NCBI GenBank assembly: GCA_950295325.1
Contig: OX485809.1
Location: forward strand, 41,507,081 to 41,571,080
Reading direction: 5' to 3'
DNA: 64,000 nt
DNA from: Polytrichum commune
Taxonomy: Eukaryota > Streptophyta > Polytrichopsida > Polytrichales > Polytrichaceae
A program made the position numbers and the translations under genes. The notes below the pieces were generated by a model, which saw only the letters and a list, made by a program, of their open reading frames with translations, had not been told where the DNA came from and did no database searches. Below, piece by piece: positions 40,546 through 48,112 of this stretch. Position 1 is the stretch's first letter. Each line of letters starts with the position of its first letter.

Positions 40546-40647
40546 CCACGGAATCCTTCTCATAGTAATTAAATGCTCCGAGTACAGCAAAACGAACTAG
40601 CCCATTCCCCCTCCACAGCTTTAAGCATACATCAAAACCTTGAGCGA

Positions 40648-41517
40648 GAATCCAAAAAGGTTTGTTCTTCGGTGGAGTCGGGTTGCAAGTCTACGCCCCT
40701 GGCCAGAGCTGCAAATGGAAAATTCTGGTGCCGGGTGCGAAGTCCATCACCCTCTACTTCGAAAAGGTTGCCCTAACCTACGACGCGCTGGATTTTATCA
40801 CAGTGGGCCACGAGAATCATGTGCAGGAGACGCTGACTGGGTTTGGGAAGAACATAACGGTGACAGTCTTTGGAGACGAGGCCAACATACACTTCAACTC
40901 GTATGGTGGTAGAAGTCCCCAACCAGAGTCGGCGGGCTTCATCCTTCACTACGCTGCAGGTGAATCTTTAGAAACTCTTATGCCAATCGTGTATGTTTCG
41001 TCTAGCGTGCTTGAGGTAAGGTACCCAGGACTAATTCGCCTACTCACATTGATTGCTGTGGGTGTAAGTGCACGGACACCACATAGAGATGGGATCGTGT
41101 GTTGTGAACCATTCTGGACCCAGTAGTCAACCTAATTGCGGGGGATCTACATGATCGTTAAAGAAGAAAGAGCTTGATCAATGTATAAGATACTGCCCGA
41201 AAATTGGTTGCAGAGCCAACAGTGCGTGTGTTAAGGGTTGCTTCCTTGGAACTTGACTTTCAAACGAATTTGATGTGTAGATCACTTTGTGTGCATAGTA
41301 ATTGGAGCTCACATGGACACTTTTTGTTTTGCACTCTCTGAGTGTATCAAACACGGAATTAATTACAAGATTATTAGCAAATTTTCATCATCAAAGTGAA
41401 GATTCTTTTGTCCTTCTAAATAATCGTGTTTTAAGGCCATGATGTTTTTATCGTATGTCCTTTTAAACTTGCGTGTGAAACAATCAAGGTTTCACCAACC
41501 AAATCCTCAGGGAAGCA
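40648..41517 (+). pseudogene. Inverted partial copy of the CUB exon and 3' flank
   Basis: This segment is the reverse-orientation copy of 42563-43437. It contains the CUB-coding exon (from GGT TTG TTC TTC onward) plus its 3' flank, but lacks the signal peptide, the EXORDIUM domain, the first Cys of the CUB domain and any visible promoter. In about 480 nt of coding sequence I count six substitutions against the parent exon, five changing residues (Ser/Phe, Lys/Thr, Glu/Lys, Thr/Ala, His/Gln). An 8-nt deletion near 41104 removes the parental stop context and extends the frame to 41126. It is best read as a truncated duplicate, not a separate gene. Confidence 0.88.
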
Positions 41518-42562
41518 TCTCAAATATCTACCGTGGCAATTAACAATCATCACTCCCACCTATACAGTCAATAAGGATATGATTAACAAGGAAGACACAC
41601 AACGTCCAAGTTACTCACCATTGTTGTGCAAGTATTGAGATACTTCATAAACCCTAAACCCTAAACCATGACCTAATCAAGAGAGAATTCTTCTTCTTGT
41701 AACCATTTTGGTACAAGTATTTCAAGGGAAACTATACTAACCCTTGATTCATGCAAGGCTACTAGGCAAAACATGCTTCGTCCTACTTTATTGTACCCAT
41801 GCATATGAATTATGAAGCACTTGTAACACAATCCCCTTCATGCTTCTTTCCGGGATAATGGGCACACCAAAAACATCAAGACAATAATACATGGACACGT
41901 TAAACATAACATTTATTCTAAAAATAAATGAGGATAGTGAAAACTCCAACTCAATCTTGAGATTTCCATGCATAAATTTCGGCACTTTCAAAATCACATG
42001 CTAATAAGTGTTGAATTTGTCCAAGGTACTAGTTTGGTCCGTGTTGTACCAACATTCTCATAAACATCAAGGCATACAAGTGAAATGGGAGGGGGACTCT
42101 TTCATTACAAGAGGGTGTTCACAGCTTACAACAATGATACTTGACATGAGCGGCACCCTTTAAGAAACCAAATGCATGTGAGCAAGATTATTCACCGAAA
42201 CTGGAAGCATGATAAGTTTGTAAAGAATCAAATTTGTTGAGCTCTTGCTCTCAATTTCTAACAATTGTTTTCACATGTTTCAAATTGCATTAACACCGTT
42301 GTTCTTAAGTAATCGGGTTCTCACAAATGCTAGACTATGAGTTTGTAAATCAATGCAACTTGATGGTGTCTATTATTTGGAAGCTGACATGTTCCCCACT
42401 CAACTCCATACGCCATAACATGGAAAACTTGAACGAATGGGCCGCTTGAATGATGAAATGGAAGTTACAACGAATGACCTGCCACAACATAACACAACCC
42501 ACATCATGAGTAACATTGAAAAGATACACGCTTGGCCACTACAAATACTTCCATTGCTTCCC
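41518..42562. other. Spacer between the inverted arms
   Basis: About 1.05 kb of unique-looking AT-rich sequence, the loop of the potential hairpin. It includes the telomere-like repeat at 41648-41667. No gene seen. Confidence 0.7.
41648..41667. repeat. Interstitial telomere-like repeat
   Basis: AAACCCTAAACCCTAAACC, nearly three perfect CCCTAAA units, about 130 bp beyond the inner end of the left arm. Confidence 0.75.
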
Positions 42563-43437
42563 TGAAGATTTGGTTGGTGAAACCTTGATTGTTTCACACG
42601 CAAGTTTAAAAGGACATACGCTAAAAACATTCAAGGCCTAAAAACACGATTATTTAGAATCCTCACTTTGCTGATGGAAATTTGCTAATAATCGTGTAAT
42701 TAATTCCATGTTTGATACACTCGGAGGGTGCAAAACAAAAAGTGTCCATGTGAGCTCCAATTACTATGCACACAAAGTGATCTACACATCAAATTCGTTT
42801 GAAAGTCGAGTTCCAAGGAAGCAACCCTTAACACGCGCACTGTTGGCTCTGCAACCAATTCTCGGGCAGTATCTTATCCATTGATTGTCAAGTGGAGATC
42901 AAGCTCTTTCTTCTTTAACGATCATGTAGATCCCCCGCAATATTTAGGTTGACTACTGGGTCCAGAATGGTTCACAAATTTTCAACACACGATCCCATCT
43001 CTTTGTGGTGCCCGTGCACTTACACCCACAGCAATCAATGTGAGTAGGCGAATTAGTCCTGGGTACCTTACCTCAAGCACGCTAGACGAAACATACACGA
43101 TTGGCATAAGAGTTTCTAAAGATTTACCTGCAGCGTAGTGAAGGATGAAGCCCGCCGACTCTGGTTGGGGACTTCTACCACCATACGAGTTGAAGTGTAT
43201 GTTGGCCTCGTCTCCAAAGACTGTCACCGTTATGTTCTTCCCAAACCCAGTCAGCGTCTCCTGCACATGATTCTCGTGGCCCACTGTGATAAAATCCAGC
43301 GCGTCGTAGGTGAGGGCAACCGTTTCGAAGTAGAGGGTGATGAACTTCGCACCCGGCACCAGAATTTTCCATTTGCAGCTCTGGCCAGGGGCGTAGACTT
43401 GCAACCCGACTCCACCGAAGAACAAACCTTTCTGGAT
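42563..43437 (-). repeat. Right arm of the inverted duplication (parent copy)
   Basis: Reverse-complement match to 40648-41517. It covers most of the CUB exon of the EXORDIUM-CUB gene and about 420 bp of 3' flank. Similarity is near-perfect in the coding part and lower, with small indels, in the flank. It breaks off at GGAAGC on the inner side. Confidence 0.9.
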
Positions 43438-45866
43438 GGTTCCCTTGGGTTTATGCAGCACCACGGTGTTGGCGGCACAATTCTCTGTATAACATTACAC
43501 ATACGAGATCCATGAAGCTTATTGTGTCATGTGGACCTTATGTGGTTGGCGCACTACCGTTCCAAGCCGCTCCCCGTTGGCGCGGGAAGATGACGGCACA
43601 GGTCAAACTAGGACGCAAATCTGGGACTTGCAAGGATCTCTGACTCGTTGGAACCTAGAATGGATTGAGCTGCTCATACTGCGGGACTTTGAAACAACGA
43701 GAGCTTGCAAACGCTGATAAAATCACCATTTCAAACACTAAGCAAGTGACAGTGATTACAACGTTGTAAATCTATGATACCCAAATTCATTTTTACAAGG
43801 AATGACAAAGAATGTTCAACCGGTGACACTAAGTATAATTGTTAGTGTAGATATGTTACATGGCAACCACTATACATTGTCATTTGAATCTGGAAGACTC
43901 ACCAACAGGTTGAGTGGCGCATCCCTTGGTCTCCAAGCTCCAGATCTTCTGAATCAGAAACTGGGATCCATGGTCACCGTAAACATTGAAGGATGCCTTG
44001 GACTTAGGCTCCACCAACGTATGCAGGAAGTTGTAGCATTCCGAAGTGTTGGTAGGGAAATCGGGGTAAATGCTCGGCAGATTACAGTACCACCAATCTC
44101 CCGCGGCATAATTGAACTCGCACAAATCCTCCGGAACGACATTATACATCCACGCAGTATTATACGGATCCACAATCGTTGACAGAAGCTCATAAATGTA
44201 ATTGCTTATCATAGCATCAAGCCCTCCGTCGGGTGAAACCTCCTTGTTCGGAGCCCGTCCAACATCCAAACGATTGGTCACTGCAGGTGGTGAATTGAAC
44301 GGACTGCAACCAATGAGAAGGTCGTTGGTTTCGGATGGGAGGGGGACAAATGTGTAGAGGAAGTTATTGCTTAACCAGTCGGAGCAGTTATTCGTGGTTG
44401 TTACACTGCAATTGGAAGACCGGTCGGCGCAGTAAGCTGTCCCATTGAATGTGACGTCCCCGGAGGTGAAGAGGAAGTAAATTCCTTGCTCGTAGTCCTC
44501 CGGAAGGCTATAATTAGCGATGTGGTTACCGATGATGACCACGGGGTCGATGTCGGGGTTGATTGTCTGACCGAACGAGTATGCGTCGTCAATTTCACCG
44601 GCTATGGTGACGCTCTTGCTTGCATACTTTCGTGGTTCTCCAGGAAGTTCTTGGTAATACTCCGTCACGAGCTTGTACATGTTGCTTAAGCTCGGCCATT
44701 GTCGGATCGGGTGCTTTGGAGTGAGGGAGTTTGTGGCCGTTCGAAGAACATTCTTCTGTTGCTCTGTCCATGTGCCGTACCACACGAAGTAGATGTGTAC
44801 CGGTTTCCACATGATCTGCACATTGTTGTGATGATGGTAAAAATGCGGAGTGAAACATGAAGTCTCCATGACACATTCTTCGTTTAGGAAGAACATGTGT
44901 AGTGGTTCTTGGAGAGGGCAGGGAACATGCAAGAATCCTAAATTGGAGAAGCTTCAGGGTTGGTGTATACTTTGTCCCCCATTAGAATATCAACGGTTTT
45001 TGAAACACTTCTCATGCTTCTAATGTACTGATGGTTTGTTTTTTCGCAAAAAGAAGTAACATAACTGGTAAGACGGAATTATCTATTGAGAGGAATTCAT
45101 TGAGACCATGTTTGTGTCTAAAGCAGAAGAGGTTGGCATTGTCAGAGTCAATGGTCAATTAGAACCAATCAGAAGTAAGTCAACGTCCACATCCCTAGGT
45201 ATTTAGGGAATTTCTTGGAATTTGTAGTCTTCTTGATGCTTGCCTTAATACAAAAGCAGTTCCAAAATAGGTCAATGTTAAATCTGAAGGTCAATATATT
45301 CATTGCGAAAAACATCTTCATACTGAGACAAGTCGATAAGGAAACCTCAAGGTTTTGTAATGTCATAGTCTACCTAGTGAAAAAAAATCCTAAGACAACA
45401 CAAGAAGGGCACCAAGCAGCATTACTGTTGATGGTAATTATTCAGTCCCGCTATTACTCCTTGATTAAATTTAGTGTGTTTCAACTATACAAAAAATTGT
45501 TTCCAACAGTATAGACAATGGATAAATGGAAACAATTTTACGATTAATCTGATGTATAACTGCTATTCGATAGACACGATAGAGACTCAAGATTGACTGA
45601 GCTTCCACTATTTAGAAAAACTGAGGTTGAAAGTTAGTACTTACCCTTCCTCCATGATACTCGACGTTGACAATCGGTGGCCGGTATGTCACGCCCCTCG
45701 GAGTCCCGGAGGACAACAAGGAAGTTGCCCCAGGTTCATTGCTATCATAAAACGAACTCAAACCTTCCCGTGCATAGCGTGCTGCCTCACAGGTATGTAC
45801 GTTGATATGCACCAAAACCAGGGCCAAAGCCACTGCACAATATGCCTTGATTGAGATCTTCGTCAT
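42982..45866 (-). CDS. Secreted EXORDIUM-like protein with C-terminal CUB domain
   Basis: Three minus-strand exons, 45866-45645, 44815-43903 and 43484-42982, join in frame to about 545 residues. Residues 1-29 are a signal peptide (AVALALVLVHINVHTCEA core). After the EYHGG motif, exon 2 (residues ~75-378) is an EXORDIUM/PHI-1 domain: PVHIYFVWYGTWTEQQKNVLR, QWPSLSNMYKLVTEYY, IYFLFTSGDVTFNG, WWYCNLPSIYP, many Cys and several N-glycosylation sequons. EXORDIUM proteins are apoplastic and linked to brassinosteroid- and carbon-dependent growth. Exon 3 (~380-490) is CUB-like: NCAANTVVL, SCKWKILVPGAKFITLYFET, YDALDFITVG, ITVTVFGDEANIHFNSYGG, SAGFILHYAAG. CUB domains usually bind protein or glycan ligands outside cells and are uncommon in plants. 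The last ~50 residues after HYAAG may be read-through of a splice site (GCAG-gtaaat), with a further exon possible. Confidence 0.85.
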
Positions 45867-48112
45867 TTGCAGGCCGGCGAGGACATCACGAACTAGTTAT
45901 TGTGACAATCATTTATGCAGGTTCAATGAGAAACCATGTCAGGCGTGAGACATGGAAACGATTCATTTACCCACTTCTAGATCTGATTTTGGAAAACCAA
46001 TGAATTTCTACTGCACAGAGAAACACAAGTACAACCAGGACGATAGGAATCTAGGAACAACAAGAAAGAGTTTGTGCTCAAAGGTGCTCAAACATAAGGA
46101 GACACGAACTGGACCGAAGAACCAAATGACCAAGTACATCTGTGACACTTGTGATTACAACTATATGCATGCACTTGTAGGACATCCATATCACAAGATG
46201 CAATGCGAGCAGCTCCTCATATTCATTTAACGTTGTGATGATCCATGCTATTGAAGGCAGCATCTGTATTTGATATACTTCATTTGTTATCCATTGGCAT
46301 CTTCTTCTATATGCCACGAATTGCTAACCATTGACAGGAGAAGGTCACTGAACTGAAAAACATATACATCCACTTGCAGCAAGACCTCCAAAACCCGAAC
46401 CTCACGGATGCTCCCAATAATTTGAAATGCAGCCTTTTCGACCCAAGCTTTTGAAGATTATATGTAACTCGCTAACCATTCACAGAAGATTGTCAATAAA
46501 ATTATATTGATTTGCCTTCGCATGCGAATGCGGCATGCTCCCAATATTCATGCAATTAACCAGCTGTGTCATCAAAGCTATTCAAGGCAACATGATCTCC
46601 AGCTTACATACATCACATATATATACATGACTTCTCAAACATTGAGACTGTTTCTAAACTGAGAATGTAATATGTATGAGTGCACATCAAGATCCTCCAG
46701 TATTGATGCAACATTTGTGGTCCAAGTATTTGAAGGCATACAAATGGTCTTCTCATACATAAGACGTGTTAACCGGTAACATTAGGCCAGGAGACTGTCA
46801 CTAAGCTGAGATAGAATACAAGTCTTGCAGGGCGTCCAATACACAAACTAAACTGAATTCTCCCAACACTCGCACAACCTCATTAAATGAAAACACTTTT
46901 GAGATTACAGCGAAAGAATCGCCAACACAAGGCATCATGGCAGGCTCCGAGGAATAGACCGATCGGATTAAACACAGTATACAACAATTGACAATTATTT
47001 CGCATCACCTACTCCAAGTAACTTCCAAACGTGACGATCCGAGTGAGGATCATGTGCTAATGAATTGCTACGCACCTTGACTGGCCCCAGGAAGAACTGC
47101 AGCAACCGGAGGAGGCAAATGGATCTGCATGCTTCGACCTACTCAGTGTGACGAGGGATCCTTTTGTAAGCATCAGTGACTAGTGTGGATTGACTTGAAG
47201 GTTGCCAGGTCGCAAATCACCACACGTGAATTTCCCGTCTAAATGTGAGCAAGGATTTATATTTGCATGTCCACAATTTCGGAGGAGCGTGGGTGAGATC
47301 ACCCATAATTCGAAAACGTGTGCAATATACTTAATGTAGTTCTACATCTTCGGCAACATGTCGAAGGTGGAAGCTGGGGAGGGTATATATGTAAAGCGAT
47401 AATGTACGTAAAAGCAAACATGTAACTCCACACTAATCAGACGAACAGATCTACTTTGGAAACTTGAATTTAAGGTGGTATAAGATATACAAAAGGGTAA
47501 AATGGCAACGCTCAAGTTGCGGTGAACTCCATTTCAGTGTGAAACAATACAAAGCGTCAAAGGCCGCCCAAGACACCTCCAAAACGGGGAGGGCGAACCA
47601 ACAAGTACACTGGTACCTTTCTGGATGATTGCAGTGGATGGCGCCATCTTATTCTCATCCATTCCCCAACCCAAGTGGACTTAACCATGGTTAAGAGGTG
47701 GATTAGGCGGAATACTCTAGCTTTCTTTGCCATGTGTGAGGACAACTATTTTTAAGCATCACTTTTTGGATACACATCTCATGATGCCGACTATTATTAT
47801 TATAACTTTGTTTGGCATGTGTTAGGAGAACTATTTTTTAGCATCACATTTTGGCTCCACTCCCATGATGCCGGTTCGTATTATTATAACTTATAAATAG
47901 GAAGGTATGCCACATGTCAACTATAATTACTATATATTGAAAAGAAATTAATGGGTTAGGGTTTGAAATTTCAAAATAAGTGGCGTCCATGGCTTTACTT
48001 AAAAATATATATAATGTGGTCATCTTTTAGGGTTTGAGAATCCTATATACTAAGTCTTTTAGGGTTTGAGAATCCTATCCTATCAACGATTGTGAGCATG
48101 CGGAGTGCCATG
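45867..48112. other. Upstream region of EXORDIUM-CUB gene
   Basis: Presumed promoter and intergenic sequence, no further gene recognised. It contains an 84-bp tandem duplication at 47726-47893 and a 23-bp motif (CTTTTAGGGTTTGAGAATCC) twice at 48024-48078. Confidence 0.45.
47726..47893. repeat. 84-bp tandem duplication
   Basis: Two diverged units starting TTTG(C/G)CATGTG and ending CATGATGCCG...ATTATTATAACTT, at 47726 and 47811. Confidence 0.75.

Follow-up and report, generated by a model that had tools for sequence, protein, structure and literature searches.

A moss EXORDIUM-CUB protein family with a candidate zincin-like metal site

We studied a 64,000-nucleotide stretch of Polytrichum commune DNA (assembly GCA_950295325.1, contig OX485809.1, positions 41,507,081 to 41,571,080; hereafter the window) and a gene in it that links an EXORDIUM domain (EXO; Pfam Phi_1) to a CUB domain. 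It is one of about 19 family loci at which the frames of the two domains are joined and ancestry is shared. Our preferred reading, to which we give a probability of roughly 0.45, is that these genes encode a secreted EXO-CUB family whose EXO domain carries a zincin-like candidate metal site and whose CUB serves as a binding arm, the copy in the window having no such site.

The EXO-CUB gene of the window

A preliminary description of the window had placed a gene at 42982-45866; this is borne out, and the gene can now be assigned to the minus strand. Its parts are the following.

45866-42982, minus strand: whole EXO-CUB gene, three exons with a joined frame
45645..45866, minus strand: exon 1, with the start codon, a signal-peptide-like N-terminus and the beginning of the EXO region (...VNVEYHGG)
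44816..45644, minus strand: intron 1, GT-AG, phase 0
43903..44815, minus strand: exon 2, EXORDIUM/Phi_1 domain, the Phi_1 match covering protein residues 69-375
44165..44194, minus strand: YELLSTIVDP, remnant of the HExxExxxDP motif with the His and the second Glu gone (alignment A2)
43485..43902, minus strand: intron 2, GT-AG, phase 1, 418 nt
43126..43484, minus strand: exon 3, CUB domain (Pfam CUB_2 and CUB; structure model)
42982..43125, minus strand: exon 3, 47-aa C-terminal tail and stop, continuing the frame beyond the CUB

The joined frame comprises 545 aa and is free of stops. Pfam matched Phi_1 (PF04674) on the joined protein at 2.7e-27 (96.3 bits against a gathering score of 25) and CUB_2 (PF02408) at 5e-7, above its cut-off. 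CUB (PF00431) fell under the cut-off on the whole protein (0.0039, 17.9 bits) and rose above it on the CUB exon alone (2.2e-4, 22.0 bits vs 21.4). Exon 1 has matches near full length at L005, L006, L009, L012 and L013; its N-terminus, over about 28 aa judged by eye, is signal-peptide-like, and the window protein is predicted to be secreted.

The EXORDIUM domain had been put in exon 2 together with a signal peptide; the domain is indeed there, while the signal-peptide-like stretch sits in exon 1. The in-frame passage in phase 1 from exon 2 into the CUB of exon 3 was correctly described, running through a GT-AG intron. The CUB itself was also rightly placed in exon 3, except that the final 47 aa, after ...GFILHYAAG, lie outside it. 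This tail is absent from the wider family and is perhaps a run-on beyond the ancestral stop.

An EXO-CUB family in the genome

The genome scanned measured 408 Mb, and match counts from it are lower bounds. Profile searches found at least 15 places for PF00431, at least 37 for Phi_1 and at least 11 for PF02408, and two CUB proteins used as queries yielded at least 27 merged CUB places. For 20 of these 27, a same-strand Phi_1 match lay within 6 kb upstream (chance ~0.0003 per place), and all 19 CUB places longer than 330 bp sit downstream of a same-strand Phi_1 match. The seven unpaired places were a partial inverted copy in the window and six short pieces (177 to 285 bp). The pairing of EXO and CUB in one protein, first claimed for a single gene, holds as sequence and extends to a larger family of ~19 loci. 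Among the parts that were read, L004 repeats L003, L006 repeats L005, and L012 repeats the window gene.

At 19 of 19 loci, the EXO exon is followed by a GT donor in phase 1 and the CUB is preceded by an AG of compatible phase; because only phase-compatible acceptors were listed, the acceptor is fitted and the donor is not. Among 15 loci, the intron between them was shortest in L011 (112 nt) and longest in L007 (2215 nt). Ahead of the CUB exon, the open frame measured just 2 to 29 aa (15 loci), with a Met in four of the 15 and no room after it for a usual signal peptide, which makes it unlikely that the CUB is a separate secreted gene. Splicing of exon 2 to exon 3 is predicted for the EXO-CUB genes in general. 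The notion that EXO and CUB are separate neighbouring genes is hardly tenable in the face of the junctions at every locus, these short open frames and the correlated divergence of the two exons.

Across 12 loci, pairwise EXO and CUB divergences were correlated with r of 0.84, and across 10 loci, where each recent clade contributed one member, with r of 0.69. Both Mantel tests gave p 5e-5, the lowest value that 20,000 shuffles allow; L001 and L010 entered with partial EXO pieces. The ratio of non-synonymous to synonymous substitution rates (dN/dS) was calculated for ten chosen pairs. In the seven diverged pairs it was 0.15-0.23 for EXO (three pairs with computable dS) and 0.16-0.30 for CUB (six pairs with computable dS), values that are rough, several of these dS exceeding 1. 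They indicate that in the diverged members both domains are under purifying selection.

In a tree of 21 EXO domains, a branch with support 100/99 separated ten EXO-CUB members from eleven CUB-less EXOs, that is, EXOs with no CUB place found nearby in the genome search; the split L001 and L010, the copies L004, L006 and L012, and L030-L033 were left out. The tree is in line with what was probably a single fusion, in which EXO would have joined CUB through a phase-1 intron before duplication to about 19 loci.

At E <= 0.01, PF00431 was matched by each of the 12 CUB exons scanned, and PF02408, a family known mainly from nematodes, by nine of them. Such matches could point to an animal or nematode contaminant, or to a recent transfer, as the source of the CUB segment. 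This seems very improbable: 18 of the 19 CUB places are on chromosome-size contigs (the other is on the 31-kb C46), and the CUBs are strongly diverged (identity to the window's CUB from 39%), each tied to a plant-type EXO. Contamination is already contradicted by these observations, and an old transfer from animals is possible. The locus on C46 (G000:C46:6384-9582) has the same scores and the same read protein as one at C3:42498397-42501595, and the pair may be an assembly duplicate.

The ends of the family members differ. Nine of the 19 loci (L001, L002, L007-L010, L014, L030 and L031) end at most three residues after the CUB, and nine extend beyond it, by 17 to 81 aa where measured. At L032, a frame shift inside the CUB breaks off the reading frame, and the tail of L013 is frame-shifted. 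L003 and L033 have their own tails after the CUB, the 81-aa tail of L003 including a hydrophobic stretch. A membrane or glycosylphosphatidylinositol anchor in the window's tail was considered and found unsupported, as nine loci stop at the CUB end and the tails of the near copies differ.

The CUB domain

An alignment of 12 CUB rows (A1) was the basis of a structure model with a predicted local distance difference test score (pLDDT) of 84.3. Its top match in the PDB was the CUB of TSG-6 (Z 13.7, root-mean-square deviation (rmsd) 2.2, 108 residues aligned). In all, 78 of 999 chains reached Z >= 8, and the best 50 rows were all CUB-holding proteins. A sequence profile matched 27 solved sequences at E <= 1, best among them the CUBs of cubilin, PCPE-1 and MASP-1/3. 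The preliminary description had exon 3 as a CUB sandwich; the model clearly matches solved CUB domains, and on its evidence exon 3 is a CUB domain.

The Cys pair of the expected first disulfide (C2 and C36) is invariant in the 12 CUBs. A second pair, which is common in CUBs and not obligatory, was found at the expected places in none of the 12, L014 having two additional Cys elsewhere. With the positions of the Glu/Asp/Asp calcium site mapped through structure-sequence alignments, D63 is present in 12 of 12, the Glu position is variable and the last Asp occurs in three of 12.

The HExxE site of the EXO part

At 14 of the 19 loci (L002-L011 and L030-L033), the EXO part holds HExxE, followed by [DN]P and, ~20 residues on, by ExxDxC. 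The remaining loci read HELMS (L014), HQLFR (L001), YELLA (L013) and YELLS (the window and L012). In L014 and L001, which lie outside the window's near copies, the loss of HExxE is partial. The preliminary description mentioned neither this site nor its loss in the window. Three of the 11 CUB-less EXOs (L019, L022 and L024) have HELAE or HEIAE, in a count that excludes a split place at C7:27057234/27059223 and other weak or broken Phi_1 places. None of the H, the E and the downstream E, D and C varies across the eight members of alignment A3, which were chosen for keeping HE and all of which match Phi_1.

A plasmid search with the CUB-less L019 as query found one Phi_1 homologue on plasmid 2 of Gemmatirosa kalamazoonensis, with HELDEAVTDP...ENADKC. 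Pfam assigned this protein (L029:511-1623) to Phi_1 at 4.6e-10. Its hhalign alignment with the EXO-CUB profile had a probability of 97%, HELDEAVTDP and ENADKC falling in register with the site of the family. The same plasmid has a second matching place. No relative came from the plasmid search with L008, an EXO-CUB member, and the Gemmatirosa protein as query gave no further plasmid record and no phage. Genome-contig scans with A3 and A4 and a viral-contig scan with the CUB alignment returned no confirmed bacterial or viral relative. The Gemmatirosa sequence suggests that the HExxE site predates the plant family and that many CUB-less EXOs altered it afterwards, one bacterial sequence being thin evidence for this.

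These counts bear on a rival reading, in which EXO-CUB has no enzymatic function and is secreted for adhesion or signalling, with two domains that only bind and HExxE as a structural relic. An intact HExxE is missing in eight of the 11 CUB-less EXOs and in five of the 19 EXO-CUB loci, and the EXO of L014, whose HExxE is not intact, still shows strong constraint when compared with L003 (dN/dS 0.23). The 2009 study of EXO, in the portion of its text consulted, likewise reports that EXO resembles no protein whose function is known (PMC2661892). On the other hand, the five residues that are invariant in the HE-selected A3 and in the bacterial homologue go beyond what one would expect a relic to keep. 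We hold this non-enzymatic reading to be plausible, with the odds leaning the other way.

The fold of the EXO part

The model of the L005 EXO (pLDDT 81.4) has a helix at 198-215 that bears H208, E209 and E212, and before it the strands 6-13, 69-76, 111-117, 131-136 and 151-158 and a helix at 18-29. To our eyes, this order of strands and helices resembles the N-terminal part of metzincins. The first three rows returned by Foldseek were Bacteroides fragilis metalloproteinases. In the VIA comparison, the best Z was 8.2 (rmsd 4.7, 175 aligned) and that of rank 50 was 6.6, the best 50 rows all being metzincin-type metalloproteinases by name; ADAM22, among the matches, is an inactive metalloproteinase. 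Models that lack a clear match typically peak at Z 7 to 8, with 4 to 5 at rank 50, and as the best Z of EXO is near the usual value, the likeness to metzincins is suggestive only.

At the level of sequence, the metzincin zinc motif HExxHxxGxxH/D is not present, 14 of the 19 loci having HExxE and the window YELLS. Alignment A2 had no PDB sequence match at E <= 5, three of the proteins had no match in NCBIfam, and Pfam on the eight A3 members gave, besides Phi_1, one weak Hikeshi-like match in one of the eight and no peptidase family. The EXO domain was not filed as a metzincin, its motif being different and a peptidase sequence link being absent from these searches. A tolloid- or astacin-CUB identity was also rejected for the window protein, whose leading domain is Phi_1 and which matches no peptidase family.

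The state of the window's copy

Compared with L005, the window copy gave a dN/dS of 0.91 for EXO and 0.29 for CUB (14 changes). Over the three recent pairs formed by the window, L005 and L013, the EXO values were 0.88-1.19 and the CUB values 0.29, 0.40 and 1.52. Changes that could be placed on the lineage of the window and L013 numbered one synonymous and 18 non-synonymous in EXO, and one of each in CUB; on the L005 lineage they numbered four and 14 in EXO, and three and three in CUB. Codons differing between the window and L013 were dropped. With a distant outgroup, a further 24 EXO changes (nine synonymous, 15 non-synonymous) went unplaced, so that the 1:18 ratio is biased. The EXO part of the window copy looks weakly constrained.

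The window copy, its inverted copy and L013 have all lost the His and the second Glu, which would leave a CUB-anchored EXO with no metal site. The activity of the window copy is probably not metal-dependent. It may be an EXO that has dispensed with the metal site, acting as a binding-only protein, or a decaying duplicate. The latter possibility, that a recent duplicate with a decaying EXO is becoming a pseudogene, stands somewhat short of an even chance in our estimate. The high EXO ratios among the three copies and the CUB ratio between the window and L013 fit it, as do the lost motif, the run-on tail, the frame-shifted tail of L013, and the 99.6% inverted duplicate and broken orphan CUB fragment beside the gene. 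Decay is opposed by the intactness of the whole frame and of all splice sites and by the low CUB ratio between the window and L005; even the EXO count of 1:18, biased as it is, has fewer synonymous changes than pure decay would leave.

Duplicates and inverted repeats around the gene

Two further features accompany the gene.

41515..48070, strand not assigned: segment with the whole gene, found again, inverted, at G000:C7:41576618-41583154 (99.63% identical, 6556 columns)
40632..40961, plus strand: orphan CUB-exon copy, inverted and without its first residues, in inverted repeat with 42535-43437

The inverted copy of the 6.5-kb segment is ~21.5 kb away and carries the L012 gene copy. Around the 3' part of the gene, the inverted repeat 40650-41537 / 42535-43437 consists of blocks 84-100% alike (93% overall), with about 1-1.9 kb between its arms. 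A transcript running through both arms could fold into a hairpin RNA that matches the CUB exon.

As on C7, an EXO-CUB gene is found as two like copies of opposed orientation at G000:C2:40362383 (-) and C2:40388985 (+). The copies of the C7 and C2 pairs are about 27-31 kb apart, the DNA having been compared for the C7 pair alone. L030 and L031, at C2:7830551 (+) and C2:7968820 (-), are closely similar EXO-CUB copies, also in opposite orientation, ~138 kb apart.

Proposed roles of the two domains

Under the reading of a secreted family with a candidate metal site and a binding arm, labour would be divided between the CUB, for binding, and the EXO domain, for activity. The CUB is a binding module best known from animals. 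By analogy with animal protease-CUB proteins, it would act here as a ligand-binding arm and, from the C-terminus, would most likely hold EXO on a protein or glycan of the wall or apoplast; a tether to a wall ligand had also been proposed in the preliminary description. The EXO domain itself would most likely come from a bacterial-type zincin-like domain with the site HExxExxxDP...ExxDxC. Conservation of this motif is observed; metal binding and enzyme activity are what it would suggest, and for the intact members we put metal-dependent activity at about one chance in three. A broader proposal, that EXORDIUM descends from a bacterial HExxE metal-dependent hydrolase of zincin-like fold whose site some plants kept intact in CUB fusions, with many CUB-less EXOs and the window copy being pseudoenzymes, strikes us as unlikely. 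If it is true, the fusions would be an independent plant counterpart of the animal metalloprotease-CUB proteins that act on the extracellular matrix.

Several observations weigh against the reading that we prefer. The EXO model is poor in the region of the downstream acidic residues, Foldseek gave no PDB match at E <= 0.001 (best 0.046), and the VIA rows are redundant (many of them ADAM17) and were taken from Foldseek's list alone. The second ligand would be a Glu and not the His of HExxH, and hhalign found no link between EXO and the genome's one M10 matrixin match. Eight of the 11 CUB-less EXOs are without any HE, which means that EXO can exist in the absence of HExxE, and the classic calcium site of the CUB is incomplete in most members. 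Near the window, the CUB ratio of 1.52 between the window and L013 comes from six changes, and the 4:14 count of L005, which has kept HExxE, indicates that fast EXO change is clade-wide and not confined to site loss. The splicing, finally, is read from genomic DNA alone.

Relation to known proteins

Arabidopsis EXO is extracellular (apoplastic) and growth-promoting, with a biochemical activity that was unknown as of 2009, and EXO relatives were noted in a moss and one soil bacterium, according to the same portion of that study (PMC2661892). As given in an extract of a second paper, EXO clade V contains only nine P. patens and two Selaginella proteins (PMC8481617), and this clade is a natural candidate for the same EXO-CUB family. 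Marchantia has 18 EXORDIUM-like genes, 10 of them in the wall proteome, in a paper whose main text, so far as consulted, does not use the word CUB (PMC8792609).

The open-access literature, surveyed mostly by titles, held no report of the EXO and CUB pair, which databases of the InterPro type may list, and by title or abstract start it held no link between EXO and a peptidase. The term 'CUB domain' in papers on plant polyphenol oxidases presumably denotes the copper-B site. The string 'cub' in some papers on phosphate-induced proteins, including PMC8481617, turned out to be only a digital object identifier in the references.

The presence of EXO, a ligand-binding module and a candidate metal site in one protein offers a direct test of EXORDIUM's biochemical activity. 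Module combinations of the protease-CUB type are usually regarded as an animal invention, and EXO-CUB would be a plant case of such a combination.

Like the land-plant EXORDIUM and EXORDIUM-LIKE (PHI-1) proteins, the window protein has a Phi_1 match above the cut-off behind a signal-peptide-like start; unlike them, the EXO-CUB genes add a CUB in a separate exon. They differ also from the CUB-less EXOs of the same genome in mostly keeping HExxE. The bacterial Gemmatirosa homologue shares the site in register, but its 370-aa frame ends with the Phi_1-like region and has no CUB match at E <= 1. The CUB resembles those of TSG-6, MASP-1, PCPE-1 and neuropilin in fold (Z up to 13.7) and in the first Cys pair (12 of 12), whereas it is without the second Cys pair, has an incomplete calcium site and is partnered by EXO. 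Among animal metalloproteinase-CUB proteins are tolloid/BMP1 and ADAMTS13. EXO-CUB has their order, with a secreted, possibly zincin-like domain first and the CUB last, but it carries HExxE and not HExxHxxGxxH, and a protease role of its EXO domain is a candidate one.

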